Shown here one piece after another: positions 27,885 through 54,800 of a DNA stretch of 64,000 bases. The stretch is taken from NCBI GenBank assembly GCA_024516035.1, contig CM044958.1, positions 21,563,568 through 21,627,567 on the forward strand. The letters run 5' to 3'. The position numbers were made by a program, and so were the translations under genes. Each line of letters starts with the position of its first letter. Position 1 is the stretch's first letter. The notes beneath the pieces are model-generated. The model was not told where the DNA came from and searched no databases. It saw only the letters and a list, made by a program, of their open reading frames with translations. Source of the DNA: Bactericera cockerelli (Eukaryota; Arthropoda; Insecta; Hemiptera; Triozidae).

Positions 27885-28365
27885 GGTTTTTTCTCTCTCC
27901 CACAGTCAGTGATTGAATCAGGATCGTTTAGAAGTCATTGAATATATTCAGCAGAACTCCGAAGCGAAATGGGAAGTTGTTGAAATTTTCCCTCAAAAAA
28001 TCCACCCCGGCCAGGATTTGAACCCACAATCTCGGGTCAAAAGGCAGATGCATGTGTTTCCTGATCCACCACGTTACCTTGTCCAGACAGTAGTGGCCCT
28101 GAGGGAAGTCGTAGTAAAAACCGATCGGTTTTTTTCTCTCTCCCACAGTCAGTGATTGAATCAGGATCGTTTAGAAGTCATTGAATATATTCAGCAGAAC
28201 TCCGAAGCGAAATGGGAAGTTGTTGAAATTTTCCCCCGCAAAAACCCACCCCGGCCAGGATTTGAACCCAGCATAATCTCGGGTCAAAAGGCAGATGTGT
28301 TTCCTTATCCACGACACGTTACCTTGTCCAGACAGTAGTGGCCCTGAGGGAAGTCGTAGTACGTC
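27885..28365 (-). repeat. 243-bp tandem duplication: GPCR exon 2 end + donor + SINE
   Basis: Two copies, spaced 243 bases (CACAGTCAGTGATTGAATCA at 27901 and 28144). Each contains, on the minus strand, the last ~40 bases of exon 2 (TACGACTTCCCTCAGG ... GTCTGGACAAG), the donor GTAACGTG, and a tRNA-like SINE (B box GGGTTCAAATCCTGGCC). The copy joined to the real exon has its donor at 28321-28322; the extra donor is near 28073. Confidence 0.9.
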
Positions 28366-28549
28366 TCGTCGCTGTGCGGCAGACTGGGTTCGTTTCCCGT
28401 CTTGAAGATGTAGTGGCGGAGCTGGCCGTCCGGTAGGATGATGAGCTTGTCGGAGGACCCGGGGTAGTGGTAGATGGGCCACTGCTGCTTAGCCTTGCAG
28501 TCCGGCAGACCCATCACCAGCTCGTAGGGGACCTTGACGGGCTTGAAAC
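28323..28549 (-). CDS. GPCR exon 2
   Basis: 227 bases, entering in phase 1 and leaving in phase 0. Bounded by acceptor CCCCGCAG and donor AAG|GTAACG. Encodes the PVKVPYELVMGLPDC to FPQGHYCLDK part of the ectodomain. Its 3' end is duplicated downstream. Confidence 0.85.
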
Positions 28550-29418
28550 CTGCGGGGGACGGGGGTAGTAGAGTTTGACGAGAATGATTAAAATAGAGAG
28601 GTTAGTTGATGACATGGATATTCAGAACTATTACCTGCTGATGATAAGCTCAAAACAGCTGTCCAGGTATGTTCTGATATTCATGTACATCTAGTACAAC
28701 TTCTCAGTTTTCTGTTTATACTGATACTGATTAGAAGCGGAATTTAGAAACAAGACTGTGTCTGCCGTGCAATCATGATACTAAAGAGTCCTTTTACTTA
28801 CATGCATTTGCCTTACATACATTTTTTAACAGTCGAGGCATAGCCATCTATTTATTTTCCTAACTTTACTATACAAAACTTAATCGGATGAATCGACAAC
28901 TTCCTTTTTATTCTATGGGGGGAATTGAAAAGGGGGATTTTGTACCCTTCTGACGACACATTTTGGAATTGGGGGAATTGATGTGAAATGCGGGGGGAAT
29001 GACAAACGCCCTTCCTAACAAAGCTTCGCTTACCTATCTCGTTGGTGAATATGGGTGACAAACGCCCTTCCTAACAAAGCTTCGCTTACCTATCTCGTTG
29101 GTGAATATGGGTGACAAACGCCCTTCCTCACAAAGCTTCGCTTACCTATCTCGTTGGTGAATATGGGTGACAAACGCCCTTCCTCACAAAGCTTGGCTTA
29201 CCTATCTCGTTGGTGAATATGGGTGACCACATCTCAATGGTGGAGTTGGGCGTCACGGCCACACACCTCCTGTCAAGCATGATCTCGTTGCGGCCGCAGC
29301 ACTTGTGCACCTTCACCGCGGCCGCATGCGGCATGGGCCCGGGCGGCGGCGGTATATGCGAGGCCAAGCCTCGGCCGCACACAGAGACGAGGAAGCAGAG
29401 GAACCACACGGTCGTCAT
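28323..29418 (-). CDS. Methuselah-like GPCR, 5' part (exons 1-2, partial gene)
   Basis: Exon 1 is 29202-29418 and exon 2 is 28323-28549, joined in phase 1 (donor GATAG|GTAAGC, acceptor CCCGCAG|GTTTC). The product (about 148 residues) starts with a signal peptide (MTTVWFLCFLVSVCGRGLAS), then a proline-rich stretch, KCCGRNEIML near residue 38, and in exon 2 LPDGQLRHYIF and FPQGHYCLDK. The 'KCC' motif followed by 'LPDG' and 'YCLD' blocks is the pattern of the methuselah-type extracellular domain, which sits outside the cell and binds ligand in this secretin-like receptor family. No membrane segment is present, so the gene is incomplete. The missing part is probably at 44687-45990 (see findings). 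It could also be a separate paralogue. Confidence 0.85.
28550..29000. other. GPCR intron 1, plain part
   Basis: Apart from G-rich runs (GGGGGGAATTG near 28917 and 28970) nothing is recognised. The remainder of the intron is the 56-bp donor array. Confidence 0.6.
29001..29224 (-). repeat. 56-bp tandem array of the GPCR exon 1 splice donor, 4 copies
   Basis: Units start at 29001, 29057, 29113 and 29169. On the minus strand each has 26 bases of exon 1 (CACCCATATTCACCAACGAG + ATAG), the donor GTAAGC and about 25 bases of intron (AAGCTTTGTTAGGAAGGGCG). The rightmost copy is the true exon end (donor 29200-29201); three more intact donors lie inside the intron. Confidence 0.95.
29202..29418 (-). 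CDS. GPCR exon 1 (start codon, signal peptide)
   Basis: Start ATG at 29416-29418, the first in the frame and directly ahead of a classic signal peptide. 217 coding bases. The GC-rich middle (GCGGCCGC twice) contrasts with the AT-rich surroundings. The 5' UTR is not delimited. Confidence 0.83.
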
Positions 29419-29689
29419 TGTGGAGGAAGAAATGTGCTGTGAGGTGTGTCGAAAGTTTGTTTCCTCAATCTGTCACATGGTAGCGTGGTGTGCGGCTCCA
29501 AAACTTTTCAACTTCGAAATGTCTTCTCGATGGGGGTTATCCACATGAAAGTTCACATCACTCACAGAATCTGGTAACAAAATTTGCTCTATGCTGATTT
29601 ATTGAACTATTTTTTTAAACAAACTATGTTAATTTATATTCATTTAACTCCAAGTTGTGTTCTGAGGTTCGGAAAAACACAATTTTTAG

Positions 29690-29900
29690 TTATAATACAG
29701 TCAAACCTGGATATGAAAGAGAACTGAATATGAGGAGAACGATTTCCTGGTCAAATTTACCTCTCTTTAAGGGTAAATAACCTCTTTATAAATAAATAAA
29801 TAATTATAAAAATAATATCAAATCTAATAAGGGCAATCTATACTTATAGAAGAGAGTTCCTAGTATAAAACTACTAAGAAACCTGGATATAAAAGAAAAA
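29690..29900. mobile_element. pogo/Tigger-like MITE
   Basis: Left end ACAGTCAAACCTGGATATGA; internal echoes AACCTGGATATAAAAGA. A related end (TAGTCAAACCAGGATATG) is at about 42512. The second terminus is unclear. Confidence 0.4.
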
Positions 29901-29929
29901 CTTTCAGAAGTGTTATGATAGTAGACGCC

Positions 29930-30115
29930 TGTCCCGGTAGGTCAGTTATCAAAGCGTCTGGCTGGTAATCCAGAGGTCGCGAGCTCGAAACCCAACCGCG
30001 ACATGATAAGTTATCACGACCACATAATAATACGTCTTGGACTTACTGCTGGAATAATGGGATTCATTAGTCCTAATCGGATAGTATAAATAAGGCGATA
30101 TATTGTTATTATTAT
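29930..30115 (+). mobile_element. tRNA-derived SINE, family T3
   Basis: Head GTCCCGGTAGGTCAGTTATC, B-box region GAGCTCGAAACCC, then the family body (CACATAATAATACGTCTTGG, CCTAATCGGATAGTATAAAT + AAGGCGATA) with an ATT-rich tail. Shared with 52075-52340 and 52615-52815. Confidence 0.85.
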
Positions 30116-30745
30116 TACGTACGTACGATATTCCCTATGATGTGTTGGGTTTCGCTTTGACAACGTCAATGTTAGTTGTTTTTCAGTTGAATAGGTAATT
30201 ATGTATTTACCTGAGGAGGTAATTATGTATTTACCTGGCAAATTAGAGCAGTACAACCACAGGAGTAGGTTCCTGGTTGTAAACTTCTAATTTTCCTGAT
30301 GTCAGCTTTTATTTACCTATTTTCTTTTGTAGATGAATAGGTTCTTAGTCCTATAGTTTTTCAAGGATTCTATTTCGTTAGTCCGGTCTTTGATAGAAAG
30401 ACTATCAGGAAAAATCAGATGGAAAAATAAATACAGACCCCAAGCGTCCATGCGTAGGTGATCGATATTTTTAGAATAATCTTTTTGGCTTTGATTGAGA
30501 CCTGAGACTTCTATAAAAACAGGGTCAAATTTAAGTATGTAATATTTATTTTTTTCAATGAACAGTATTTCATTTAAAGAGACGACTGTACCGCCCAGAG
30601 TCCTGGCCATGGAATGTATTAACAATTGCTTTATCTTATAATGTTGTTATAGAAAGCCGTTTTGAAGTAAGAAAGTGTTTTTATGGATCCCGTACGGTGC
30701 ACCGAGGGTCGCCAGTTATGATTTTACTCTTAATATATTAGATAT
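30116..30745. other. Non-coding stretch, no gene supported
   Basis: A 102-codon minus-strand frame (30317-30625) has no recognisable motif, and no splice context was found. Left as unassigned. Confidence 0.4.
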
Positions 30746-30747
30746 AT

Positions 30748-30822
30748 TAAGATTAGATGAACCACCGACCTCCAGGTTAAAAGTCCGCCGCCTTGTCGAT
30801 CCAGCTACTGAGGTCGGTTTAC
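30748..30822 (-). mobile_element. tRNA-derived SINE fragment, family T2
   Basis: Minus strand has CTCAGTAGCTGGATCGACAA + GGCGGCGGAC and the ACCTGGAGGTCGGTGGTTCA end, matching family T2. Confidence 0.7.
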
Positions 30823-30929
30823 AACTATAATTGTCTGCAATGTGTACACATGCGCGGATATAGCCCTCTTGTACTGGGGGGGCACAATCGCACAATATAC
30901 CTAACTAGCGAGTTGCACCCGCCGCTTCG

Positions 30930-31025
30930 CAAGCCTATCACACACACACCCACCACACCACACACCCACCACACCACACCACACCACACCACACACCACC
31001 ACCACCACCACACACACACACTCAC
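30930..31025 (+). repeat. CA / CCA microsatellite
   Basis: Runs of CACACC, CACCAC and CACA. The open frames across it on both strands are compositional artefacts. Confidence 0.95.
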
Positions 31026-31578
31026 ACAAACACAAATGTCAATATTTTTCGTGTCACCCATCCATTAGTTGTCCTTAATGGAGCTCAAGAATGGCTCATC
31101 AGAATTTTGCGATCAATATGTCAAATGAAGACTACAACCCCTGCAAAAACATTCTCGCTTTGAGTTGATAGTTCGTCACGACATATTTCGAGAAAAATGT
31201 CAGCCAGTTCAAAAAACGTAAATACTTTTTGTTTACCCATCCATTTTATGTCCTTACTCAACGTAGCTCAACAACGGGTCATCAGAATTTTGTGATTGAT
31301 ATCTCAAATGAAAACTTGAACCCTTGCTTAAAACTGTCTCTTTTTGTGTTGATACGCCGCCGCCGTGGCGCCGTCACGACAAATTTTGAAAGAAAAAAAC
31401 GTCATTTCGGTCGAAAAATGTGATTTTTTTGTGACACCCATTCATTTTTTGTCCTTATCCCGTTTAGCTGAACCCTAGAGATATATTCCCTGATCCAAAT
31501 GGACCTATAGGTAAAATTTCAGGTTTCTCTGACAATCTGTGTGGATTTGACAACTTTATTATTTAGTTATTTCTTATT

Positions 31579-32090
31579 GGTCTTAGAATTGGGAATTATT
31601 TTGGGTCCCGTGCAGTCCGTGACCCCCTAACTTATTGAGATCTTTTTTTTTTTACGGGGTTAGTCTTAGAATTGGAAATTATTTTGGGGCCCGTGCCCCC
31701 CTAATTCATTGAGATCTTTTTTTTTACGGGGTTAGTCTTAGAATTGGGAATTATTTTGGGGCCCGTGCCCCCCTAACTCATTGAGATTTTTTTTTTTAGG
31801 GGGTTAGTCTTAGAATTGCGAATTATTTTGGGGCCCGTGCCCCCCTAATTAATTGAGATCTTTTTTTTTACGGGGTTAGTCTTAGAATTGGGAATTATTT
31901 TGGGGCCCGTGCCCCCCTAACTCATTGAGATCTTTTTTTTTAAACGGGGTTAGTCTTAGAATTGGGAATTATATTGGGGCCCGTGCCCCCCTAACTCATT
32001 GAGATTTTTTTTTTACGGGATTAGTCTTAGAATTGTGAATTATTTTGGGGCCCGTGCCCCCCTAACTCATTTTTTTTTACGGGATTAGGT
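31579..32090 (+). repeat. 72-bp tandem array, about 7 copies
   Basis: Unit contains TAGTCTTAGAATTGGGAATT + ATTTTGGGGCCCGTGCCCCC + CTAACTCATTGAGATC and a T run, spaced 71-72 bases (for example 31661 and 31733). A single unit ends the related block at 48620-48660. Confidence 0.93.
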
Positions 32091-32476
32091 ATAATGAAAT
32101 TTGAGAAACACCGCTTACCGAAAAAATCTGGGGGGCACGTGCCCCCCGTGCCCCCCCCTATATCCGCGCATGTGTGTACATCAGTAATTCTTTTATCGTA
32201 CCATTAGAGTACCATGTTGTAATGATTGTTTGCAGACATATGTTCCACTGTGGTTGTTTTTTTTTAAACCAGTTTGGTAACCGGCTTGTTTCTAGTGCTT
32301 TTACAAGAAACCTCAATTTAACCTTATCGATAGTATACAGACAACAGACAGTACTGACGCACAGACAATACAGAGAGCCTATATACCACTCTAACAAACT
32401 ACAAATAGCAGCAATCATTATTAGGATGTGTCCCTTTATCCCTTATTTAACCTGGAAATATAGGTTGTTTTCCCTT

Positions 32477-32779
32477 GTATTGTAGTCACCGTGGCCGAGT
32501 GGGTCAGCGCGCTAGGCATTGCACGCATGGTGACCTGGGTTCGATCCCCAGCGGAACAGCAATATTTCTGCTCTGTATTTGAGTGTTCGGGGTCCACTCA
32601 TACCTCGTGAGGAAAAACGAGTAGCTGCTTTGATGTGAAGCAGCGACCAGTGGCGGAATCTTAGGCAAAATAAAATAATACAAGATATAGTAGTAAAATT
32701 GTGTAGTACTACAATTTTAGTAGTGAAAAACTACTAAAATTGTGACATAATAACACAAAGAAAAAGCATTATTATAATA
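32477..32779 (+). mobile_element. tRNA-derived SINE, family T1, full-length with 12-bp TSD
   Basis: A box GTGGCCGAGTGGGTCAGCGC, B box GGTTCGATCCCC, body GGGGTCCACTCATACCTCGT, tail rich in AAT/ATT. Bracketed by TTGTTTTCCCTT at 32465-32476 and 32780-32791. Best reference copy of the family in this window. Confidence 0.93.
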
Positions 32780-32934
32780 TTGTTTTCCCTTATAAAATGA
32801 GTTGTTTTTCCTTATTGGGCCTGAAAATTGTTCTCTTATATCCAGGTTTTTCTTTTAAATAGAGTTTTTCTTCCCTTATTGGACCTGAAAATTGTTTTTT
32901 TATAATATCACGGATTTCCTTTATATAGCCAGAT

Positions 32935-33085
32935 TATTCGGAATTCTCTTTATATCCAGATTACCCAGGATTCTTTTTATATCCAGATTATCCAGGATTC
33001 TCTTTATATCCAGATTATCCAGGATTTTCTTTATATCCAGATTATCCAGGATTCTCATTATATCCAGATTATCCAGTTCTTCTTT
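32935..33085 (+). repeat. 27-bp minisatellite, 5-6 copies
   Basis: Unit AGATTATCCAGGATTCTCTT + TATATCC. The 27-bp period is a multiple of three, so an open frame crosses it; this is not evidence of a protein. Confidence 0.93.
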
Positions 33086-33099
33086 ATTCGCATTTGTCT

Positions 33100-34440
33100 G
33101 TACTTAATAGATCTCCGATGTATCGACATTTATTTATTTGTCTTTAAAATTATTTTTCTTAAAAAATCAAAATTAATTAGTGTGCAAATTTTCTTGCACA
33201 TTGTCTATCCTTCTTGAGAGGTTACTGCTATTAATTATCTATCCTACGCTAGTATTTTAAATGCCTGTATTGCGTAATTTGTTTTTGATGTCATTATACT
33301 TCATAGATAAAAACAGATTAAAAAAACAAACAGATTATGTGTTTATTTTTCTAATAACGACTTCTGAAAGATCGGTATTGATCGAAGATTTTTGTTGTTG
33401 TTGGTTGTTGTATTTTTACTACGAACGAAACTATCTACTTGTTATTATTATACTATTGGGCTACATAAATACATAACAACGAACAAGATATCAAGATATT
33501 TGTTATGGTAAGCAATCGGAAATTTATGAAATTATATTAAATTTATTGTTCCCGTGAGAAAGTGCCTATTGGCTGCAGTTAGTTGTACAGATATTTATAT
33601 TATGATGGTTATTTTATTGTCACAAGCATGATCTTGGCTTAAGTAAATAAATCCATTATTTACTGTACCTTAGCAAGTACTGAATTGGTTTCTATGATAG
33701 CTAATATTTAATTTTATGTGAGAGAGAAACAATTTATTTTTTATTTAAAGAATGCTCTTATACAGAGTTGACATTCAATACTTCTTTTCATAAATTAATA
33801 AATTTTAATTTATTTGTTAATTATTCGCTATGAATAAAATATTATTTTATCAAAGATCCAAAAAATAAATAAAACGTTTGTCACAGATATTAATCAAAAC
33901 ATCAACATTGCTCTAATTCGTTTATCCTGAGAGTATAAATTTTTATGCGTGTATACGTATACATATGTATTTTTTTAAATAGAATTAAATTATTAATCTG
34001 TATTATTTCTTAATTTTTAATCACAAATAAATCCAGTAAAGAATGTAGAAGAATCCAATCCACGGATAGAAATTCGAGTCTTCACAGAACACGAACTAAA
34101 AAATCACTAAAATGATTTAAAAAACCACACATAAATCCGAATGACTCACGCAACTTTCTCTTTACGAGTGACACAAATTCGACTGCCTAAAAAAATACAA
34201 TCAACAACCGATCGGAACATGAACTTTAAAGTCGACCGAAAAAAAAATAAATAGAAAAACTTGTCAAAATTCAAGGAATGTTTTTTTTTACTTCGAGCAA
34301 GAATCCTTGCCTTTTTTTACAAGAATTCTTCTGCAAGAGGTTCAATTGTTCACTACCTTCTCTCATCACTGGTTTCACTATTGAGTGTTCGCCAGTTCAG
34401 ACCCCTCAATCCGTTGGAGAAGAGAGGTAGACTACAGGAA
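33100..34440. other. Very AT-rich DNA, nothing recognised
   Basis: Short open frames (33261-33476, 34261-34443) are low-complexity and have no known motif. No SINE or inverted repeat was identified. Confidence 0.5.
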
Positions 34441-34483
34441 TAGCTCGAGAATACCTGGCGTAGTGTGAGGGGCCCCTTCTCTC

Positions 34484-35090
34484 GGCATCCTAGTGTTTTG
34501 TGCACAGGTAATGACTATGTAGAGAACCAGGCATGGCTGTGGATTAAGAGGTGAATTCTGTTTACAGGGTGGTGTTGGTCATGGGAAATTGTGACTGAAA
34601 GACATGGCGGGAAAATAATGAGGCATGATGGTTGGTCCTTACCTCCTGAATCCTAGTGTTTTGTGCACAGGTAATGACTATGTAGCGAACCAGGCATGGC
34701 TGTGGATTAAGAGTGAATTCTATGTACAGGGTGGTATTTGTAATGGGAAATTATGAATGAGAGAGATTGTGAATTAAGGCTGGAATTAATAGACGTTTTT
34801 TAATACCTCTGTGGTCTAGTTTTTGCGTATTTGTCTTAGATGGGGAAAACAGATGCTAAGTCATATCTTACGTGCTCGATTTTGTCTTCTAATTTCGCCC
34901 TAAGAGGCGACCGCGAATTCTGTATACAGAGTTGTGATAGTCATGGGAAATTGTGTATTAGAGGCATGGCGGGAAAATTATGAGGCATCGTTGGTCCTTC
35001 CCTAAATCCTAGTGTTTTGTGCACAAGTAACGACTATGTAGATAGCCAAGCATGGCTGTGAATTAAGAGGTGAACTCTGTATGCAAGGTA
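34484..35090 (+). repeat. Irregular tandem repeat, about 3 copies
   Basis: The block CCTAGTGTTTTGTGCACAGG + TAATGACTATGTAG ... CAGGCATGGCTGTGGATTAA + GAGGTGAATTCTG ... CATGGGAAATTGTG recurs starting near 34489, 34655 and 35007, with indels between copies. Confidence 0.85.
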
Positions 35091-35172
35091 GTATTAGGGT
35101 CATTTTCATTTATCTTGGGCAATTGAATTTTTTCAAGAGAGTTCAAGATTTTTTTAAAAATTAAATTTAAAA

Positions 35173-36292
35173 ATATTTGGTGTCATTTTTTCAGGCTACA
35201 TTTACTCTTTAGTTTTCAAAACTTTTATCTGTTACCAACTTTTTAATCATGTTTGTAACTTTTTTAGGGTCTTTTTATTCGCCCATATTAATTGTCATCA
35301 TAGATGATGTGAAAATATTCATTGTCTTTTAGACAAATTAGGAAATATATTAGAAGCACATTATTTCTATTTGGCTTTAAATATATTTATTTTTTCTATT
35401 TCTATTTCAAAAACTTTCAAAAATATTGGTGTTTTCTGTCATGAACGTTACATTTTTCCTAAAACAAACTTGATTTTTCTTGTTAACTATTTTTTAGGCT
35501 CAGAAGACTAAGACAAATACCTTTGAGCAAAAACTTTCATTTACAATATTTGGTGTCATTTTTTCAGGCTACATTTACTCTTTAGTTTTCAAAACTTTTA
35601 TCTGTTACCAACTTTTTAATCATGTTTGTAACTTTTTTAGGGTCTTTTTATTCGCCCATATTAATTGTCATCATAGATGATGTGAAAATATTCATTGTCT
35701 TTTAGACAAATTAGGAAATATATTAGAAGCACATTATTTCTATTTGTCTTTAAATATATTTATTTTTTCTATTTCTATTTCAAAAACTTTCAAAAATATT
35801 GGTGTTTTCTGCCATGAACGTTACATTTTTCCTAAAACAAACTTGATTTTTCTTGTTAACTATTTTTTAGGCTCAGAAGGCTAAGACAAATACCTTTGAG
35901 CAAAAACTTTCATTTACAATATTTGGTGTCATTTTTTCAGGCTACATTTACTCTTTAGTTTTCAAAACTTTTATCTGTTACCAACTTTTTAATCATGTTT
36001 GTCACTTTTTTAGGGTCTTTTTATTCGCCCATATTAATTGTCATCATAGATGATGTGAAAATATTCATTGTCTTTTAGACAAATTAGGAAAATATTAGAA
36101 GCACATTATTTCTATTTGGCTTTAAATATATTTATTTTTTCTATTTCTATTTCAAAAACTTTCAAAAATATTGGTGTTTTCTGTCATGAACGTTACATTT
36201 TTCCTAAAACAAACTTGATTTTTCTTGTTAACTATTTTTTAGGCTCAGAAGACTAAGACAAATACCTTTGAGCAAAAACTTTCATTTACAAT
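35173..36292 (+). repeat. 373-bp tandem triplication
   Basis: GGTGTCATTTTTTCAGGCTA occurs at 35179, 35552 and 35925, an exact 373-base period. Units differ by very few bases (GGCTTTAAA or GTCTTTAAA; AAGACTAAG or AAGGCTAAG), so the expansion is recent. Each unit has T-rich tracts ending in TTTTTCAG and TTTTTTAG; no coding exon is evident. Confidence 0.95.
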
Positions 36293-36799
36293 ATTTCTAG
36301 CAGCTACCTTTTTTTCCAAATCCAGCTTTACAAAAAAATACAAAAATCTAAACGTACCAGGTAACGTTCATGACTTGGATCACAGATTTGGTTCCTAAGT
36401 CCCCAAAGTGAGTAAATAATATATAAATTTGCAATGCAAGATCTTTTGATTCTATTCTCCACATGATTAGGTTTATCTTTCAATGCTAAATAGACCTCGG
36501 AGCCTCCTATGAGGGACACTAAAACACCTGGATTTACAAATGCCAAAGAAATTAATTTGTAATCACCTTATCAAGGTGAGGTAATGAGTTCTTTCCCGTT
36601 GACTTTTTCTTACCCGAATTCTCTCCGGCTTGTTGCAGGGGTCACCACGAGTATCTCTCCCAGAAATAAGACCATGCTTTGTTACATTAGGTATTTAAGA
36701 AAATGAAAACTATAAAATTATCATTTTTATATAAGAATGGGCCTTTTATAAGGAAATCTTTTAAATCTCTAACTAATGAAAGGCAATGCCTTCAGTGTT

Positions 36800-36990
36800 T
36801 AGTAGAGTTAGGTAAAATACATAGAAGGCCATGCCTCAGGAATATAGTATATAGGGTTAAGGATAATACATAGAAGGCAATGCCTCGGGATTATAATAGG
36901 GTTAGGTAAATATATAGAAGGCCATGCCTTGGGTTTATCATAGGGCTAGGAAAAATACATAGAAGGCCATGCCTCAGGTCTATATTAATG
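36800..36990 (+). repeat. ~47-bp imperfect tandem repeat
   Basis: Five units built on ATACATAGAAGGCCATGCCT + CAGG ... TATAGGGTTAGG. The same array is in copy 2 at about 40930-41135. Confidence 0.85.
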
Positions 36991-37139
36991 ATTCCTAGGT
37001 GTTTCGATTATAATTTTTATGCTAGGCCTAAACTATGTAGGTATAAAATCAGGTAAAAATGCAAGCGACGCGACGGGAGACAATTTGGTGTTGATAAAAC
37101 CATGAGCGGGAGAGAACTCGGTTGTGAAGTCCCTTATCA

Positions 37140-37255
37140 ATACCTCACGAGGTATGAGTGTACCCCGGACATAATGGACAGATAAAAAAAAACTTCTCTC
37201 AAGGGGATCGAACCCAAGCCTAGTATGCTACCCACTTGGCCAAAGTCACTACTTT
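37140..37255 (-). mobile_element. tRNA-derived SINE fragment, family T1
   Basis: Contains CCTCACGAGGTATGAGTGTA and the B-box complement GGGGATCGAACCCAAG, then CACTTGGCCAAAGTCACTA. The duplicate is at 41300-41425. Confidence 0.75.
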
Positions 37256-37361
37256 GTCACAACTTTTAGTGAGTAGCATCGACATTATGAGAGCTACATA
37301 ATTCATCATATTATTATTATTCAACAATTTAGATCAATCTTTATTTACAATTACAAATATA

Positions 37362-38420
37362 CAGGGTGATTCAGAAAAGTACCGTCAAACCTTAACCACA
37401 TATTCTATGGGCTAGTTAAGGAGGGGTCAACTCTATAAAAGAAAGTGCGCAAATGCCTCCTAACGGAGGTACACGCCCCTTAAGGTGTTTTTAAACAATC
37501 GAAATTTTCATTTTACGGCTTACCTATTTGGGATATCGCAATGTGGTAAAAAAATCACTCTCAATACTAGATAGCACCTTTCTTTTGGCACAAAATTTAA
37601 CACTATTCCAATGTCAGGGGCGGTCTCAGGAGGGTCAGATGGTAGAAAAAAGGTTCTAACTTTTTAGTCGTTGCTTTTAATTGAATTTGGTTTTCACCCT
37701 ATTAAAACGTCTGTCATTGTCTACAAAAATGTTCTGCATATTTTTTTTCTCAAACCAACACAAACGCTTGAAAATTGAAATTGAAGGGCTTAAGCCGAAA
37801 TAAGATTTACAGCAAATGTTCCACATGGGCTCCTCTGGCTTCAATGCAGACCTCCATACGCCTTCGAAAAGATTGACGAACACGTTCAAATATTCCAGGT
37901 GTATTTCTTTGTTAAATAATGAATTGGCTGAAAATTCTTGTTCTAAAATTGTATGCTAGTTGCATAGGTTTCAAAACTTAATGCGGTTTTAAAATCTTCA
38001 ATTTCAATTTTCAAGTGTTTGTGTTGGTTTGAGAAAAAAAATATTCAAAACATTTTTGTAGATAATGACAGACGTTTTAATAGGGTGAAAACCAAATTAA
38101 ATTACAAGCAACGACTAAAAAGTTAGAACCTTTTTTCTACCATCTGACCCTCCTGCGATCGCCCCTGACATTGGAATGGTGTTAAATTTTGTGCCAAAAG
38201 AAAGGTGCTATCTAGTATTGAGAGTGATTTTTTCACCACATTGCGATATCCCAAATAGGTAAGCCGTAAAATGAAAATTTCGATTGTTTAAAAACACCTT
38301 AAAGGGCGTGTACCTCCGTTAGGAGGCATTTGCGCACTTTCTTTTATAGAGTTGACCCCTCCTTAACTAGCCCATAGAATATGTGGTTAACGTTTGACGG
38401 TACTTTTCTGAATTACCCTG
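37362..38420. mobile_element. mariner-like foldback MITE (1.06 kb, TA target)
   Basis: Ends CAGGGTGATTCAGAAAAGTA and TACTTTTCTGAATTACCCTG, each flanked by TA. Arms of about 440 bases (for example GGGATATCGCAATGTGGT near 37530 and its complement near 38240) around a ~190-base centre. The minus-strand frame at 37677-37889 has a transposase-like look (PMWNICCKSYFGL) but is short. Confidence 0.9.
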
Positions 38421-38689
38421 TATACAGATGCAGTCAAAAGGTAAAATAAATTAAATATAAACAAAGTTTGATCAAGGGTGGTGATAATGCCTTTGGCATT
38501 CTCTTCCGTTTATTTTATCTCCATCCAACCATGATTGTCCAAAATAAATCTCGTAATGCCGCCACAGGTCATTGTCCAATTCTTCAACTCCTAAAATTTT
38601 CCTCGCGAGGGTAATAGGGTCGACATGAAGATCAAATATAAAGATCGGAAAAACAAAACAATGTGAAGCCCAAATTGAAAATATAGACC

Positions 38690-38775
38690 TAAAAAATTTC
38701 GTCCCCGCCAGGATTCGAACCCATGCTGACTGGGTGGCAGGTCGAGCATGCTACCAATAGACAAAGTTACCTTCT
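38690..38775 (-). mobile_element. tRNA-like SINE fragment, family T5
   Basis: B-box complement GCCAGGATTCGAACCCATGC, then GGTGGCAGGTCGAGCATGCT. The same sequence is at 41660-41745 in the duplicate. Confidence 0.7.
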
Positions 38776-40200: not shown

Positions 40201-40302
40201 AGTTCTTTTTGTACGAAAACATAGGTTCATACACTACTGAAACATTATGAATAACAAAAGTAAATAAGCTGGGAAAATGTGAATGTACCAAGTTGTCTAT
40301 TT

Positions 40303-44230: not shown

Positions 44231-44264
44231 GGGTCAAATTGATGAGGAAAAATTCATGCACTGG

Positions 44265-44345
44265 GTGGGATTCGAAGCAACGGATCCCTAAGCTACCTGG
44301 ATTACCAGACTAGCGCGTTAACCACTTGACCACCAGTGCTTGAGT
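44265..44345 (-). mobile_element. tRNA-like SINE fragment
   Basis: GGATTCGAAGCAACGGATCC ... CTAGCGCGTTAACCACTTGA + CCACCAGTGC resembles the complement of a tRNA head. Single diverged copy. Confidence 0.5.
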
Positions 44346-44686
44346 CTCTATAAGGGAAAATAACCTCAGAAATTAAGAAAAAAAATTCCGGTCCCTTGAG
44401 TTCTCTATCGATAAGTGACACCAAGGTTTAGGCTGGTATGCAGAGACGATTTTGCAATTCCTATAGGGTTCACTGTAGGGTGGTCCCGAGCTTGCTATAG
44501 GGAATACTTCGACCCAGACAATTATTTATTAAAGAAACATCTGAATGCACATACGCACAGACGCTTTAAACAAACGTCTCTGGATATCAAAATCAGCTGA
44601 AGGGACAAAAAATGACCCAGGCATCTCTACAGTGAGGACTCTGCATACAACCCTTAAACTTTTGCTTTGGCTTCCGTCTTCCCCAG

Positions 44687-44822
44687 GATGGTTGGGCATC
44701 TCCATCTTCTTCATTTCGGTGGGTTCGATTCTTCTAGTCAACACGTTTTTCTACCTCACCACAGCGCAGAAGATCAGCCGCATGTCTGTGTACGGGCGGA
44801 TTCATCACAAGATGAGATACAC
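44687..44822 (+). CDS. GPCR exon A (TM5 and intracellular loop 3)
   Basis: 136 bases, entered after one base of a codon and left after two. Encodes WLGISIFFISVGS to HHKMRYT. Its donor is not duplicated, unlike the donors of exons 1 and 2. Confidence 0.85.
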
Positions 44823-45990
44823 GTGAGTCAGACTTTAGAAAAGTCTTTTTAAAAAAACTCAGCAGCTTGATCGACAAGGCGGCGGACTCGTAACCTGGAG
44901 GTCGGTGGTTCAAGTCCCGTGATATCACGAAAGTGATTAACACAAATATGATAAATTTATACGTTTTACTTATTCCATATTCTTCTCATTTTACATAATA
45001 TATGTATTTATGTTTTATTTTACAGTGGGCTTGATCCGTAAATATACGATTACAATATGATAACTTTAATTTAACTTTATTCTGTCGGGTGTGTTGGCAT
45101 ATAGGACTAAAGAAACCCTTCTTTGCTTTAAAGTCTAGAGTAGAGTGCTTTTGCTAGTAGAATAAAATACAATACCGTAGTCTCTGTTTTTCTTGTGAAA
45201 AAGAGACTAAACACACGCTGGAAGAGACTTGTATTTTTCACTTTGCCTTTTCCTGAACCTACTTGCGGTTGGCATTGGTCAACCTCTTCCTTATAGGTTA
45301 GGTTGTTTGGTTCTGGCACTCCTACTTTGCCTTTTTACGGTTGGATGCCTTTCGAAGCCACGACCTATTGATTACCAATGAGACGCCTTGACCACTGAGA
45401 TATATTCCATTCCACCGACCACAGTCGCTTGATTGATAAGGCGGCGGACTTGTAACCTGGTGGTCGGTGGTTCAAGTCCCGGTTTCAGTGTATATTTAGT
45501 CAAGCGAGTTTGAATTGTTGTGATATCACGAAAGTGATTTACACAAATATGGTAACTTCTAAATTTTTAAGTAACTTTACTAAATCTTTGCTGAACTTGG
45601 GACTTTATGACTCCGGAAAAGTACAAATGTACTTAGCGGAACTTTTAACAATGATGATTATTGAAAACCGAATAAATTTATTATTATTATTATTATATTT
45701 CTATTTCATGCCACAGGTTTGAAATGTACGTCAAGATCCTGGGCGCAATGTCCCTCTGGTGGCTCTCTCTCATCCTCGCCTGGGCTCCCTACAGTGCGCT
45801 ATGCTACTTCTACATTCTGACCAGTGCGCTACAGGCCATCTGCCTCTTCTACGTGTGCGTGTTGGGCTGCAAGCGGGTGCGCTACCTCATTAGAACCTCG
45901 TGTCTGTTTTCCTGGTGCCAGCGCGGAGTCGAACCCGGACCCTCGGAGTGGGGCGAGGAACTGTCGTCCATCAATATCAACTACTACTAG
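44687..45990 (+). CDS. Methuselah-like GPCR, 3' part (last two exons, TM5-TM7)
   Basis: Exon A 44687-44822 (acceptor CTTCCCCAG|GATGG, donor ACAC|GTGAGT) and exon B 45717-45990 (acceptor TGCCACAG|GTTTG, stop TAG at 45988). They join in frame to about 134 residues. Three hydrophobic segments are seen: ISIFFISVGSILLVNTFFYL (TM5), ILGAMSLWWLSLILAWAP (TM6) and FYILTSALQAICLFYVCVLG (TM7). The loop between TM5 and TM6 is basic (KISRMSVYGRIHHKMRY). 'LLVN..F.LT..KI', 'MYVKIL..M' and 'LQ...LF...' spacing is that of methuselah-like secretin-class receptors, which act in the plasma membrane. The C-tail ends EELSSININYY. Earlier exons are not upstream on this strand. Confidence 0.85.
44862..44955 (+). mobile_element. 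tRNA-derived SINE, family T2
   Basis: CAGCAGCTTGATCGACAAGG + CGGCGGAC ... GGAGGTCGGTGGTTCAAGTC + CCG, then TATCACGAAAGTGATTAACA. Lies in the GPCR intron. Confidence 0.8.
45425..45560 (+). mobile_element. tRNA-derived SINE, family T2
   Basis: GTCGCTTGATTGATAAGGCG + GCGGACTTGTAACCTGG, B box GGTTCAAGTCCCG, then GTGATATCACGAAAGTGATT. Lies in the GPCR intron. Confidence 0.82.
45717..45990 (+). CDS. GPCR exon B (TM6-TM7, C-terminus, stop)
   Basis: 274 bases including the stop. The first base completes the codon begun in exon A. TM6 and TM7 are separated by a very short loop (APYSALCY). The base composition is GC-rich compared with the flanks, as for the other real exons here. Confidence 0.87.
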
Positions 45991-46378
45991 ACCAGAACCG
46001 ACCTCAGCCTTTTGTATTTGGTAGTAATGAAACAGGAGCTACTGTAGACGCTCCTCCGTCTTGTGTAGCTTGCCCATCCCGTAGTATGCCTCCCTCTGAT
46101 GAGCGAGAATGAGACAGTACTACAGTTTTTATACTCTGTTTTTTATACTTTTAGATTTTAAAGAACAATCCTTCATAAATCAAAATTTTGTACTTAATAT
46201 AATTCCTACTCTATGTCCTGTTTCCTTAATAATAATAATAATTCTTTTCCTCTGTCTTATCCCGCAGTCTTATCAATCTTATCAATCTTTTCCTCTGTCT
46301 TATCAATACGACGAAAATAACTTCGTTAACTTTATTTCAAGATGAAGTTGAACTCGGGTTATTCCTTGCAGATTAATT

Positions 46379-46384
46379 AATAAA
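46379..46384 (+). promoter_or_regulatory. Possible polyadenylation signal of the GPCR
   Basis: AATAAA about 390 bases after the stop codon. In such AT-rich DNA the hexamer is common, so support is weak. Confidence 0.3.
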
Positions 46385-46539
46385 TCAGTCATGTAGGTTG
46401 ACTGTAGGCTTGATGAATAGTCCGCTAAACACTCGTCAGAATTGTACAGATACGTGAATAACAGATAGATACAAAACCTAAGTTTTTCAAGAGGTTACGA
46501 CAAGTCAAGAGATGTGACTTCTTTTTTAAATATGAATTT

Positions 46540-46850
46540 AAATTAATCAATAAGGCAAAGGCGGGCTTGTAACCTGGAGGTCGGTGGTTCAAGTCTTGTA
46601 AGTAGTGTTTTTTTTTATAATGTGAAACAAAACGAATAACAAACACAATATAATATTATATCAGCCACAGCAAGCATTTGATAAATGCAGTAGACTTTGC
46701 ATAAGGGAATAACCGACCTCAGTAGCTCGATCAATAAGGCGGCGGACTTGTAACCTGGAGGTCGGTAGTTCAAGTCTCGGATTCAGCGTTGATTTGGTAA
46801 AGCGAGTTTGACTAGTTGTGATTATCACGAAAGTGATTCACACAAAATAT
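46540..46850 (+). mobile_element. Two tRNA-derived SINEs, family T2
   Basis: A truncated copy at 46540-46610 (AATCAATAAGGCAAAGGCGG, GGAGGTCGGTGGTTCAAGTC) and a fuller one at 46716-46850 (GACCTCAGTAGCTCGATCAA + TAAGGCGGCGG, then TTATCACGAAAGTGATTCAC). Confidence 0.82.
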
Positions 46851-46859
46851 TAGTTTTTC

Positions 46860-47672
46860 TCACTTTTACAAGGGAATTGTGGTTCATATAAAAATCATTT
46901 GAGTTCATCCACTAAGTTCATATTAACGACAATTACGAAAATTGTAACGAACAAACGGAATCAGCACAGTTCCAATGAAAAGTATATTTTACGCTCATCA
47001 TAGTCATCATCATCATTGAGTTGCATCATCGTGTTTGATGATGGTCACCAAACTCGATATCTCCATCAAGTTTATACAAGGAGGCTAATAACTAACAAGG
47101 GCCTCCAGAACTAAGTTAATGAAAGTCTGATGTTTCCACTTCTATACCTACTCACTATGCTCAAGGTGGCTAGTAAGCAAAGCTAGTGCAAAAGTGAAAA
47201 ATACAGACTTAATGTTTTCATTATGCTTCTACACCATCAGCTCATGTGGGCTAGAGCCATGGAGATGCCAGTCTACAAGTACAAGTTTATAATATCCTGT
47301 TAATTAGGTACTGCAACAGTTTTGCTGTTAAGCACAATAATTCTCGCATCGCAAGCTTGTACCCCGTCGAATATTTTGCATCACTTCAAAAATCACTTAG
47401 AGATGTTACTATTGTTGTTTTTTATAAATCAAAATATGCTAGAAAAAAGTTGTTGAGGACCAAGACATGGAGAAATTGTAAATAACTAAATGAGTGAAAT
47501 GATTATTTTCCCCACTGTAAATAACGTACTTTAACATTCTGTTGTAAATAAAAATAAACAATCATGATCACTTTCTTTGTATGTTCATTTTTAGTCTTAT
47601 TTCAACTCTTAGTTAGATAGATGATGACGTCTTCATTTCACAGACAAACATACACTCACACACTCACGCAAA

Positions 47673-47705
<33 letters not shown>

Positions 47706-48150
47706 ACTCTCACTCTCACTCTCACACTCTCTCACACACACACGACACACACACACACACACACGGCACACACCTAAAACCAACCGCCAATATTGTTTTC
47801 AGTATCAACAATGCATTTAGTATTACTTACCAAATTTGTCAGACAAAAAGATAAAAATCTAGTTATTAACTCAATATCTAGTTATTAATTTATAGATATA
47901 CACCAGTTATTGCTGATATATCATTCCAAAGCAAATATACATGAATTACTGAGAATAAAATAAAACAAAACTAATTGCTGTACCCTTAACAGGGTCGACG
48001 TTAGGAAGGTCATCAAGCCGTAAAATGTAGAATAGGAGTGGCAAAACTGACCATGAGGAAGAGGTTGATTCATGCCGGCAGCAAGAAAGTTTGGGAAAAG
48101 ACAAAGTGAAAGAAAAAGAAGAAGGTCATCATATTTGTGCCAATTCGAGC
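46860..48150. other. Non-coding DNA downstream of both genes
   Basis: Should contain AQR exon 7 if its intron 6 were of ordinary size, but no splice-flanked minus-strand frame with helicase or ARM-domain similarity was seen. The only structure is the microsatellite at 47640-47775. Confidence 0.5.
47640..47775 (+). repeat. CT/CA microsatellite
   Basis: Runs of CTCTCT, CACTCT and CACACA. The open frame across it (SLSLSLSHSHSHS) is compositional. Confidence 0.95.
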
Positions 48151-48154
48151 TTCA

Positions 48155-48660
48155 GAACCATTGCAAAAACATTCTCGCTTTGAGTTGATAGTTCGTCACG
48201 ACATATTTCGAGAAAAATATGTCATTCAGGTCAAAAAACGTAAATACTTTTTGTTGTCCATTTTATGTCCTTACTCGACGTAGCTCAAGAACGGCTCATC
48301 AGAATTTCGCGATTGATATCTCAAATGAAAACTTGAACCCTTGCTTAAATTTTTCTCAAAAAGAGAAAAAAAAATTTTGAGAAAAAATTTAAGCAAGGGT
48401 TCAAGTGGATACGGCGCCATCACGACAAATTTTGAGAAAAAAATGTCATTTCGGTCGAAAAATTTGATTTTTTTGTGTCACCCATCCATTTTTTGTCTTT
48501 ACCCCATGTAGCTGAACCCTAGAGATATATTCCCTGATCCAAATGGACCTATAGGTAAAATTTCAATTTTCTCGGACAATCTGTGTGGATTTGACAACTT
48601 TATTATTTAGTCATTTCTTATTGGTCTTAGAATTGAGAATTATTTTGGGGCCCGTGCCCC
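48155..48660 (+). repeat. Second copy of the 31140-31620 block, with a hairpin
   Basis: Shares TGCAAAAACATTCTCGCTTT + GAGTTGATAGTTCGTCACGA with 31144 onward and ends in GGTCTTAGAATTGAGAATTA + TTTTGGGGCCCGTGCCCCCC. At 48332-48404 it has an inverted pair, AACTTGAACCCTTGCTTAAA and complement, not present in the other copy. It ends 50 bases from the AQR exon 6 donor. Confidence 0.9.
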
Positions 48661-48710
48661 CCAGCTCCTCAATAATTGAAAGACCTCTACCCACACCATG
48701 CAAGACTCAC

Positions 48711-48889
48711 CTGTGTGAAGAGCCGCCCCTCCGGACGTCTGGTGAGGGGGGCCAGCTGACAGCGCACCACCAGATGGCAGTCGTCCAGGATGGTGTTGAA
48801 GAAGCGGCGCGTGGAGAGCAGCGCCTCCAGGTCTATGAGGAACTCTAGGAAGCGCTCGCAGTAGCGGAGTGTGTGGTGCGGGATATCCC
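48711..48889 (-). CDS. aqr: AQR exon 6
   Basis: 179 bases; acceptor TTCCCACCAG|GGGAT and donor CACAG|GTGAGT, phase 1 in and phase 0 out. Encodes [16 protein letters not shown] to [12 protein letters not shown]-rich. The acceptor with 22 exon bases is repeated twice more upstream in the intron. Confidence 0.95.
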
Positions 48890-51800
48890 CTGGTGGGAAC
48901 AAAGATAGGCATGCGTCAATAATAATAATAATAGTACTGAGAGTAGTGTGTGGTGCGGGATGTCCCCTGGTGGGAACACAGATAGTGATACGCATGCGTC
49001 AATAATAATAGTACTGAGAGTAGTGTGTGGTGTGGGATATCCCCTGGTGGGAACAAAGATACGCATGCGTCAATATTAACAGTACTGAGAGTACATCCAT
49101 CCCAGTTAGGGGGATATCTGGCTGGGGGACATAGAACAGGGAGTAGAATTTTCTTCAAAAAGTCTGTCCCCAACCAGGGATCGAACTCGGGATATCTGCA
49201 CTAGGGGCAGTAGTTTCAACCGTCACGCCACGGCGGCTGGAATCTCCTGATGGTTGATCGCATAAATAAATATGTGGTTCAGAATGAGTCAACTTTCCCA
49301 CTTCAGTTGGCTACAGACCATCACTCTCCCCAGATGAAACCAAGCTGGATAGCAACAACATCTAATTACGCTAACCCATCTGCGGGATACTCTCCAACAC
49401 ACCCAGGAACTTGAGCATGATCCTGTGCAGATACTTCCGCTCCCACTCCCACTCCAGCTTCTACTTCTTACACTTACCTTCCTGCGGGATACTCTCCATC
49501 ACACCCAGGAACTTGAGCATGATCCTGTGCAGATACTTCCACTCCCACTCCAGCTTCTACTTCTTACACTTACCTTCCTGCGGGATACTCTCCAACACAC
49601 CCAGGAACTTGAGCATGATCCTGTGCAGATACTTCCGCTCACACTCCAGCTTCTACTTCTTACACTTACCTTCCTGCGGGATACTCTCCAACACACCCAG
49701 GAACTTGAGCATGATCCTGTGCAGATACTTCCGCTCACACTCCAGCTTCTACTTCTTACACTTACCTTCCTGCGGGATACTCTCCAACACACCCAGGAAC
49801 TTGAGCATGATCCTGTGCAGATACTTCCGCTCCCACTCCAGCTTCTACTTCTTACACTTACCTTCCTGCGGGATACTCTCCAACACACCCAGGAACTTGA
49901 GCATGATCCTGTGCAGATACTTCCGCTCACACTCCAGCTTCTACTTCTTACACTTACCTTCCTGCGGGATACTCTCCAACACACCCAGGAACTTGAGCAT
50001 GATCCTGTGCAGATACTTCCGCTCCCACTCCAGCTTCTACTTCTTACACTTACCTTCCTGCGGGATACTCTCCATCACACCCAGGAACTTGAGCATGATC
50101 CTGTGCAGATACTTCCGCTCACACTCCAGCTTCTACTTCTTACACTTACCTTCCTGCGGGATACTCTCCAACACACCCAGGAACTTGAGCATGATCCTGT
50201 GCAGATACTTCCGCTCCCACTCCAGCTTCTACTTCTTACACTTACCTTCCTGCGGGATACTCTCCAACACACCCAGGAACTTGAGCATAATCCTGTGCAG
50301 ATACTTCCACTCCAGCTTCTACTTCTTACACTTACCTTCCTGCGGGATACTCTCCAACACACCCAGGAACTTGAGCATAATCCTGTGCAGATACTTCCAC
50401 TCCAGCTTCTACTTCTTACACTTACCTTCCTGCGGGATACTCTCCAACACACCCAGGAACTTGAGCATGATCCTGTGCAGATACTTCCACTCCAGCTTCT
50501 ACTTCTTACACTTACCTTCCTGCGGGATACTCTCCAACACACCCAGGAACTTGAGCATAATCCTGTGCAGATACTTCCACTCCAGCTTCTACTTCTTACA
50601 CTTACCTTCCTGCGGGATACTCTCCAACACACCCAGGAACTTGAGCATAATCCTGTGCAGATACTTCCGCTCCCACTCCAGCTTCTCCTTCTGCTCCGGC
50701 AAATCCTTCTTCATGATCATCTTCCAGTACTTGCGCCACTTGGGCACACTCTTCAGTTCCTGCTCGCGACGGCCCTGCGAGGAGAATTGAGAACGAGGTA
50801 AGTAAAAGTTTAGCCAGCGCAGCGTCGATGACGCATTGAATTCTCATTCAGTCAGTTTCCGATGAAGATCGATGAAGTTAAGCAAGGCCCAGCGAGGCTG
50901 GATGTATTATTATCTGACCTGGTTGCAGGATTTTCAGTGAAACCCTTACAATTAACACTGCGACCTAATTAGATCTATTGTGACCAGTTGATTCTATTTG
51001 GTTTTAACGTCCTGACTGAGATAGATAGTCAGGACGGGGGTTTCACCCTCCATTCGCTGGGAATCGTACCAGCTACCCACATTAACCTCACCCAGCCTGG
51101 GTAGGGCCGGAAATGCCAGCCTCACGTGTTTGGATGAAACAGAATTTTCGTCGAAAAGTCTGCCCCAACCGGGAGTTGAACTCGGGAACTCTGAACTACG
51201 GGCAGTAGTCACAACCATTACGCCACGGAGGCTGGCGAGGCTGGATGTATAACCATTTCAATTCGAACCCTCGTGATTCTGGCTGGCTAATCCATACTCC
51301 ACTCAGGCTGGGTGAGAATAATATGAGTAGCTGTATGTGAGTATCTATCGAATGGAGAGTAAAACCGCCGTCGTGATATGACGATACAGTTGAAAACCCA
51401 AATTATATATAAAAAAAATCATACTTGTGTCAATTGTTAACACGAAGTGATATCACAGGTACTCAAACTAACTTCAATAAATCTTTGCTGAACTTGGGAC
51501 TCGAACCCCTGACCTCTGGTTACGAGTCTACCGCCTTATCGATCCAGCTACTGGGTGACGTTAAACAGGGAGAACAGTTGGATAGAGACCATCAATTCCC
51601 CATTTGTAGCCAAGCTGGCTACAATTATAACACCAGCTACTCAGGTCGGTTATGATTGATTTAAATAAAAAACCACGAAAGAAATGTTTTGGAATTCCGT
51701 TGGAAATATTAAATTCCGTTTTACAGAGTATTTGTGACGTCACTTTTGTGATTCGGGACGTTCCAAGTGCGTCCAATCATATTCTGCATTTTTCCATTGA

Positions 51801-54800
51801 GAAGATGGAATGTAAATAATCCAAACATTAATGATAATTCTCTTTGGACGCCCAGAAGCGTCCCAGAATGGGAGGAGCCCAGAATTTTCTGGTCTCCCCC
51901 CATATGATGTGTGTGGGGTATTCTGTAGTGTTGTTTACGTATACAAAAACTCACGAGTAAAAATATTTCTAAAAATTCATACTTAAGACTTAGCGCGTTA
52001 ACCACTTGATACTACCACGTATTCTTTGGGAGGATAACTTGTCATATCTCGGTGGGGTTTTGAAACCACTTGTCATGTCCCTGTTGTCATGTCCCTGTTG
52101 GGTTCCACTGAGCTACCGGGACAGACTAACACTCACCTGTTGCACCGACGTCTACGATTAAGACGACTAAAGTCCCATTATTCCAGCAGTAAGCCCAAGA
52201 CATATTATTATGTGGTAATAATTCCAAATGGGAAGATAACTTGTCATGTCCCTGTTGGGTTTCGAACCCACGACCTCTGGAATCTCTGGATTCACAGAGT
52301 GCCGCCTTTACCACTGAGCTACCGGGACAGACTAACACTCACCTGTTGCAGCGACGTCCACATTGACAGAGACACCAAATGTTTGATGGAGTCTCGAATG
52401 AGTTTCTCCTCCATGCTGTTGAAGCAGTGGTTGAGAAAAACGACAAGAGCTGTATGTTCCGACATCATTACACCGGAGGTTTTCAGGGAGGTCTGCAGAA
52501 CATGGTTGAAGAGGCCGGGGAAGTGGTCCGGATGCTTCCTGAATATCTGAGGGAAAAGAGAAAAAATGGTAAAAGAGATAGTAAAGAGGGAAAAATTCAA
52601 TGTAAATGGGATGTATTGTGTCTGTTCCGGTAGTTCAGATGTAAAGGCTCCACTCTGTGAATCCAGAGGTTCCAGAGGTCGTGGGTTCGAAACCCATCCG
52701 GTACATGACAAGTTATCCTCCCATTTGGGATTTTTGCCACATAATAATATGTCTTGGGCTTACTGCTGGATTGTTGGGACTAAATAGTCCTAATCGGACA
52801 GTATAAATAAGGCGATATAATTATTATTGTGTCACTTCTCGCCCATCAGAGGGGAGGCATACTACAGGATGGATAAGCTACAACACAGACAGCAAACGTC
52901 TACAGCAGCTGCTAATTCATGGATACAAATTCAAAAAGGTTGTATTCTTTTGTATTACTTATATTTCCTTTAAATTAACCCAGCCTGAGTGGGTCCGGGA
53001 ATAGCCTGCATCACGAGCGTGGGATAGATTTCAATTGTCACCCACCCAAGTCCTAAGCCCCTGGACGCTCATTTTCAGGACAGAAACGTTAACTGGTGTT
53101 GGTGTATTCAATATGCCATCAACGCTGGCCAATGCTCTCCTTGATGTATAGTAATAATGTTTATTATTACATGCTTTTTCTTTTTGTTTGTTCCTTCTCA
53201 TGTAGCCAATTCCGAATTTCGTGTTTCCACTGTGGCACAACCAGGGCTGCGGAGTCGGAGCCGGAGCCGGAGCTAAGGAGCCGGAGCTTAACATTTTTTG
53301 GTCTGAAGGAGCCGGAGCTGGAGCCGGAGCCAATTATTTTAGTAAAGAGGAGCTGGAGCCGGAGTCGGAGCCAAATTTTCAAAAACTTGGCTCCGCATCC
53401 AGCTCTGACTTAAAAATGAATTACTAGTATTTCCTCTCTGAAAAAAGTTCCATGAGATTTTTGATGAAGCCCTAAATGTGCTATGCAAACCTATGAACAA
53501 AATTTTACTCGTTTAAGCACAAACTTATTCAATATTGACCAATTAGATATCATTTTTTTTTTTTTTTTTTTTTCTCAAAAATAATGAGTGGTTTTTTTTT
53601 ATTTATTATTATTATTACCTATTAAAAATAAATAACACTACTCCACCACATCCACTATTCCAGCACCATCCTCAAATCTAATGTAAATAATGTTCTTATG
53701 TACAATAAAATACAATACAAAATCTAAAATGTACCTAAGAGTTATTAATTTGTGATTTAATGGTTCTAGATAAGGGGAAAAGTTATAGAACATAATGTAA
53801 GTGTTTAAACACATTTTTCGATACAACCAATGATAGGTATTCAGTTTATACTAATATATACATTTTGTATTCAAATAAGATGCACATTACTGGAGCCAGG
53901 AGCCGGAGCCGGAGCCAGTTTTTTTTCTCTTAGCTCCAGGAGCCGGAGCTGGAGCCGGAGCTAGAAAATAATACAAAGAGAAGCTGGAGCCGGAGCCGGA
54001 GCTCAAATTTTTTCCGCAGCTCCGCAGCCCTGGGCACAACACACTCTGATTGGTTATTGCATTCAAATCAACCAACCTGAGCGCGTGGTGTGACAGTTGA
54101 AAAGGAAATTTTTAGATTATGAGAGTCAAAAGTTTTTGTGGAATGGGCTACTGCTATACTTTTTGGGATAGGATAATTTATATCTGAAAAACTAGATTAT
54201 ATCTCACCTCCCAAGCGTTCACTCTCTCGCGAAACTTTTCATTGATCATGCATACAATGGACATGAGATGGGCATGGGATGACACATCCGTTTTGTAGTT
54301 GGGCCATAGGTAGTTCTCGAGATACTGGCTGAACTCCAGCATCATGATCCGACGAATGGCAAAACTGAAACCGATTAAATACACAAATGAAATATTATAA
54401 ACAAAAAAATAGTATAGGTACTTGTAGCCCATTTTAGAAACACTCTCTACTCTCAAAAACTCCAAGTCTCTGTTTCAACTGTCACACAATACACTCTGAT
54501 TGGTTGTTGCGTTCAAATTAACCAATCAGAGTGCATTCTGTGATAGTTGAAAAGAAGCTTTGGATAATTATCTTATATTATAAAATGATTCGTTTGTGTG
54601 TGTGTATGTTTGTCCTCGTAAAACTCGAGAACCACAGGTCGGGTTGAGCTGATATTTCGCATAGTTACTGATGACAGGCTTTTTGGCATTATGCACTTTC
54701 AAAAAATGAGCTTTTCAATGAGCTTATTGAAGTACTGCCATATCTCGCGTATTAATCGCGAAGTAAACAGCTGATTGAGCTGAAATTTAGAGTAGTTCCT

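Follow-up and report, generated by a model that had tools for sequence, protein, structure and literature searches.

The window, a stretch of 64,000 nucleotides of a psyllid genome (C4:21563568-21627567; genome of 565 Mb in 1032 contigs), carries tandem repeats across exon-intron boundaries in two genes, and this raises the question whether splice junctions attract such repeats or whether the repeats lie there as they lie anywhere in non-coding DNA. Five repeats, each across a splice site and present in 13, 2, 4, 2 and 3 copies, had been described in the original prediction; all were confirmed by TRF, a lag scan and alignment, and the claim that their units are unrelated to each other was supported. 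TRF recovered three of them (AQR exon 5, AQR exon 6 and gene 2 exon 1), the lag scan all five.

Repeated junctions in the window

The first gene encodes Aquarius (AQR), as identified by the Pfam domain Aquarius_N_1st (E 6e-91) and by a match to the solved structure 4pj3, the structure entries naming the Aquarius intron-binding protein. Over the entire query it shares 84 % identity with a protein of Diaphorina citri, and other proteins reach at most 69 % among the matches listed (best 120 of 318), which makes a psyllid the most likely source. The positions of exons 1 to 6 come from tblastn with the D. citri protein P0001, and both genes and all of their arrays are located on the minus strand. 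Exon 3 (54208..54363) has no local copy of either junction. The donor of exon 5 (50606..50774, 81 % in tblastn) is the most repeated: in the array at 49380..50692, TRF found 13.9 copies with a score of 2320, and the copy-by-copy alignment resolved 13 copies with a spacing of four times 90 and then eight times 96 bp, plus a truncated final copy. The unit comprises the final ~63-70 exon bases, the 5' splice site and then ~25 bases of the intron, and the intact copy is the one attached to the exon body. At the acceptor of exon 6 (48711..48889, 87 %), TRF and alignment revealed three copies with a spacing of 77 bp (48868..49079), each unit including ~22 exon bases; the frame is kept solely via the acceptor attached to the exon body, while the two upstream acceptors lead to stops. 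The donor of exon 4 (52343..52546, 83 %) was found as a pair by the lag scan (lag 206) and alignment (52098..52367). These two copies lie 206 bp from each other without being adjacent. They share 16 exon and ~32 intron bases in a matching run of 48 bp, and are separated by a sequence that is presumably tRNA-like. For exons 4 and 5, translation continued past the exon's donor runs into a stop ahead of the next copy of that donor. In the tblastn comparison the D. citri AQR protein is uninterrupted across the repeated junctions, which agrees with use of the outer site. A search for the AQR array elsewhere with one read-through frame gave 718 candidates, none of them at E <= 0.001. Near AQR but on the opposite strand, at 44676-45990 of the plus strand, two hydrophobic open frames without a Pfam match have donor-like ends.

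The second gene had been taken for a G protein-coupled receptor (GPCR), an identity that was not confirmed: a Pfam match was lacking at E 0.5, and the three relatives found are all unnamed. The coding part of its exon 1 (29202..29418) was obtained by frame reading and from the relative P0122 (68 % over 44 % of the query). The donor array at 29000..29227 has 4.1 copies according to TRF and four in the alignment, spaced by a unit of 56 bp with 26 exon and 30 intron bases, and read-through meets a stop where the first inner unit ends. Exon 2 (28323..28549; relative P0121, 94 % over 51 % of the query) has a donor pair at 27880..28369, identified by lag scan and alignment, whose two copies are 243-245 bp apart. 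The unit consists of 39 exon bases and ~200 intron bases with indels, and again read-through beyond the donor ends at a stop before the second donor copy. Judged by the reading frames, the productive site in the two genes is predicted to be the outer one only, with a stop following each inner site examined. The predicted peptide of P0122 continues past the exon 1 donor and, judged by eye and weakly, may repeat the end of the exon in a diverged form 21 residues on; if true, this would make the exon 1 duplication older than the species split.

In a test of 11 junctions of the window, with the donors of AQR exons 1 and 2 left out and some coordinates 1-2 bases from the exact site, four had, no more than 600 bp away, a second copy with 38-40 of 40 bases matching; a fifth case, gene 2 exon 2, attained 29 of 40. 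Local repeats are common in this DNA, with 11-15 % of the positions between 25 and 58 kb being repeated and, by the lag scan, local-repeat clusters spanning 33 % of the window. Thus the window alone is insufficient to decide on a junction preference. A several-kb stretch with satellite-like repeats, recognized by the same TRF units, is present twice, ~48.5 kb apart (9792-15500 and 58292-64000), and an open frame at 24967-25794 of the minus strand resembles a non-LTR retrotransposon endonuclease (Pfam Exo_endo_phos, Exo_endo_phos_2).

Junctions of kinesin, GPCR and myosin genes

Kinesin and GPCR (7tm_1) exons of the same genome with their surroundings served as an independent sample. Junctions were called solely from HMM domain ends together with a simple splice score, and one duplicated acceptor, C7:14862933, may be misplaced. 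Of the 85 kinesin matches, 66 entered the test list, 65 of them within the fetched blocks; 46 of the 146 GPCR matches were used, a hand-chosen set nearly all without listed stops. Before counting, low-confidence junctions (9 in the kinesin set, 10 in the GPCR set), one exon outside the blocks and one locus per near-identical pair were dropped. The introns of the sampled blocks, together with the window, were the background. Many near-identical gene pairs, some of them inverted, were observed at 63.2/64.7 Mb on C1, 24.4/24.6 Mb on C3, 10.0/10.5 and 26.9/27.6 Mb on C5, 25.1/25.9 Mb on C6 and between C11 and C473, which may be segmental duplications or else haplotypes that the assembly left unmerged.

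A second copy within 1 kb was present at 9 of 109 kinesin junctions, or 8 of 85 (donors 5/38, acceptors 3/47) after removal of pair duplicates and of a low-complexity site. Among the GPCR genes 8 of 57 junctions lay in a local repeat (donors 4/33, acceptors 4/24). The kinesin count includes an exon on the list whose locus, L052, was fetched because of conspicuous repeated hits. Intron positions were repeated at 7.2 % (kinesin, 100-600 bp away) and 12.4 % (GPCR, 100-500 bp). The overlap test that the original prediction had proposed thus gave no excess of junctions over introns in these genes. An earlier hand-picked set that overlaps the main sample had 1 repeated junction in 44 and 8 repeated intron positions in 409.

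Plain overlap is too lenient a criterion, as an array can enter the exon by one unit and no more. For the same reason only seed units that straddle a junction were counted in a second test, which is post hoc, as it was devised after the overlap test gave no excess. It covered 71 blocks with 55 gene clusters, 143 called junctions and 47 TRF arrays (period >=20, score >=60). Nine arrays, in 7 gene clusters, straddled a junction, none was inside the exon hits, and 38 were counted as intron-only. From the 38 intron-only arrays in 136.7 kb, uniform placement predicts 1.15 straddling arrays, a ratio of 7.9 (gene bootstrap 3.0-15.8) that stayed between 7.4 and 9.4 under other thresholds. Against an empirical background, which still includes the far ends of junction arrays, the unit rule gave 8/143 versus 2.05 expected (ratio 3.9, bootstrap 1.6-7.8) and an alternative unit rule 9/143 versus 2.63 (ratio 3.4, bootstrap 1.5-6.4). 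The excess of straddling seed units is 3.4-8 fold in this post hoc test, and the arrays are concentrated in few genes. The predicted seeding at junctions has support from outside the window in this respect, the straddling above uniform placement; a process acting at splice sites does not follow from it. Exon-facing array edges occurred at 1.05-1.12 per kb between -50 and +15 bp of the junction and at 0.14-0.40 per kb in the other bins. By eye, four of the 38 remaining arrays also straddle a junction and one begins at the donor GT (C1:63240027, without exon part); including the by-eye cases, 13 arrays stand against 0.84 expected, a count kept separate from the automatic one. Junction arrays had more copies (length/period) than the others, with a median of 7.0 versus 2.3 in the automatic set (p 0.005) and 5.8 versus 2.2 with the by-eye cases.

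Single loci illustrate the range of forms. According to the alignments, the direct repeats carry exon and intron sequence from both sides of one splice site, the exon parts ranging from 12 to 111 bases. In a near-identical kinesin pair on C1, an acceptor stretch is present in one copy in L047 and in seven copies of 52 bp in L048, and both loci share a donor array of 8 and at least 10 copies. Copy numbers thus vary between the paralogous C1 gene copies (7 versus 1, at least 10 versus 8). Four myosin loci contributed repeats at three donors and an array at one acceptor. L116 has a 17-bp donor duplication that its near-identical partner L115 lacks, so that L047 and L115 retain the single-copy state of what is repeated in L048 and L116. 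In L118 a donor array of six copies adjoins its own exon, and L117 holds a donor-type array of eight copies and an acceptor-type array of four, both extending beyond the locus ends, so that any intact exon would lie outside. In L120, a further myosin exon, the acceptor is duplicated along with 111 exon bases; this locus was chosen on account of its repeated hits and is excluded from all junction counts. Some copies are non-adjacent, as in AQR exon 4, C11:10314575 and C1:30369247. L052 (C11:8012974-8014546, minus strand) shows one kinesin exon repeated at its acceptor and donor sides in nested units. An introner or mobile element family was not seen by eye among the listed units, which differ by gene, each with its own exon end.

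Origin and persistence of the arrays

Taken as a whole, the arrays are best explained by tandem duplications across splice sites that were often expanded and are tolerated as decoys, an explanation that we consider moderately probable. Units of about 17-250 bp would have been duplicated with break points flanking the splice site, many of them being expanded later. The first duplication may have arisen by fill-in of staggered breaks and end joining or by a similar low-homology process, and the copy number may have grown afterwards by slippage or unequal exchange. Head-to-tail joints were readable in 9 of 22 aligned cases, with 12 unreadable (2 large overlaps, 10 gaps) and one missed by the motif. 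The overlaps of 4, -1, 0-1, 3, -3 and 13 bases, and of 2 or 8, -1 or 8 and -1 or 17 in the spacing-variable cases, allow, as weak evidence, a low-homology process of this kind. The inner copies would be surplus decoy sites within the intron. Such arrays would be tolerated because, whenever a donor or acceptor is duplicated in tandem, the outer site and the whole exon remain intact. The observation that the units lie toward the intron, next to an intact exon, had been put forward as evidence; it follows from the same geometry, needs neither selection nor a special process and was rejected as an argument.

As a first guess at the cause of the breaks, breaks may be more frequent at exon edges, or throughout exonic DNA, owing to transcription, R-loops or nucleosome edges, and arrays within exons may be purged. 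In its exon-wide form this becomes an explanation in its own right, in which exonic DNA is richer in break points and only the duplications crossing an exon edge survive, mimicking a seeding at junctions. We regard it as possible, if on the unlikely side. The lack of any of the 47 arrays inside exon hits, the range of the exon parts of the units (12-111 bases) and the lack of a clear excess of array edges on the intron side, at 15-100 bp, speak in its favor, whereas the array at C1:63240027 starts at the donor GT with zero exon part, and the intron-only arrays have no GC bias (GC content 0.37, introns 0.38, exons 0.53). Since these arrays are not biased, GC-rich sequence alone seems to be no attractor of arrays, and base composition was rejected as the cause.

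That splice sites have no special relation to the arrays appears rather doubtful. Repeats would form throughout non-coding DNA and reach junctions at the background rate, since straddling them is harmless. The equal coverage of junctions and introns, also in the hand-picked set, and the third of the window occupied by local-repeat clusters agree with this. A control with pseudo-donors (GTRAG off junctions, in the first unit of the array) points in the same direction in so far as it gave no separation from the real junctions (9/143), with 10/361 in sense (p 0.06) and 10/182 in antisense orientation (p 0.47). Eight of the 10 antisense cases were in three junction-straddling arrays, one of them recognized by eye only; the control was therefore treated as uninformative and not as support, also with regard to the splice motif as a cause. 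Against an absence of a special relation stand the excess of seed units and the peak of array edges at the junction; moreover, with arrays reaching one unit at most into the exon, the coverage of junctions should fall far below that of introns.

A splicing- or transcription-linked process that causes breaks at the junction itself, e.g., by R-loops, a stalled polymerase or RNP-bound nascent RNA, is unlikely. It would account for the narrow edge peak, for donors and acceptors both being affected and for the higher copy numbers of junction arrays. On the present data, however, it is indistinguishable from an exon-wide fragility with purging. A broader version, in which a lineage-specific mutational process coupled to transcription or splicing keeps making and enlarging splice-site arrays, so that about one junction in ten is duplicated and the spliceosome routinely picks the outermost site, seems fairly unlikely. 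Selection for the arrays, e.g., for tuning expression by unproductive splicing or for spare sites that secure splicing, would fit the high copy numbers, the stops behind the inner sites of the window's genes and, weakly, the possible second exon end in P0122 seen by eye, but near-identical loci differ in copy number, and we hold such selection to be improbable. An assembly artefact is highly improbable: the assembly has many near-identical segment pairs, but the copies differ in an ordered manner, as in the spacing of the AQR exon 5 array, and two separately assembled loci share a donor array of at least 10 and 8 copies.

Relation to known systems

Tandem duplications across splice sites, as the favored explanation has them, would gain in weight if they were frequent genome-wide. 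They would present a natural experiment on the cell's choice among many adjoining, near-identical splice sites and would identify splice junctions or exon edges as possible hot spots of tandem duplication. Introns could be gained and splice sites shifted from the abundant material that they would supply, and they would also be a trap for gene annotation. A literature search on boundary tandem repeats, duplicated splice sites and psyllid repeats, which included few subscription papers, yielded no report of genome-wide junction-anchored arrays, and neither 'tandem' nor 'satellite' occurs in the main text of PMC12203342, a paper on psyllid genomes. The original view that the pattern is not a described class holds, within this search, for such genome-wide anchoring; it does not hold for boundary repeats and duplications as such, which have been published (PMC2812944, PMC4974935).

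Close parallels are human duplicated genes with internal tandem repeats at exon-intron boundaries that are able to alter splicing, in a study that reported 27 intron modifications (PMC2812944). As in the psyllid, these boundary repeats differ in copy number between paralogs. That study was confined to genes in recent segmental duplications and found repeats retained also in exons, whereas the insect arrays have up to ~14 copies and an excess at junctions. Intronic VNTRs that alter splicing in ABCA7 (PMC5954066) and TERT (PMC11830802) are likewise minisatellites within genes and linked to splicing; they are described as intronic, which may set them apart from the psyllid arrays. For the initial event, induced staggered breaks in mammalian cells led to small tandem duplications via fill-in (PMC8355091). 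Tens of bases were duplicated there through fill-in and end joining, similar to the process proposed here, but the breaks were induced and the cells mammalian, while the psyllid arrays are multi-copy. In the model of intron gain by tandem genomic duplication (Rogers, Hellsten, Gao and Lynch; cited in PMC3443670 and PMC4974935), a duplication across an intron-exon boundary, as in a potato RdRp gene, multiplies splice sites in the same manner. In the psyllid, by contrast, an old intron acquires extra sites, which are frequently present in many copies, and a new intron was not seen. Tandem duplication across splice sites is thus a known kind of event, familiar from the intron-gain models, while its density and its anchoring at junctions in this genome look unusual.
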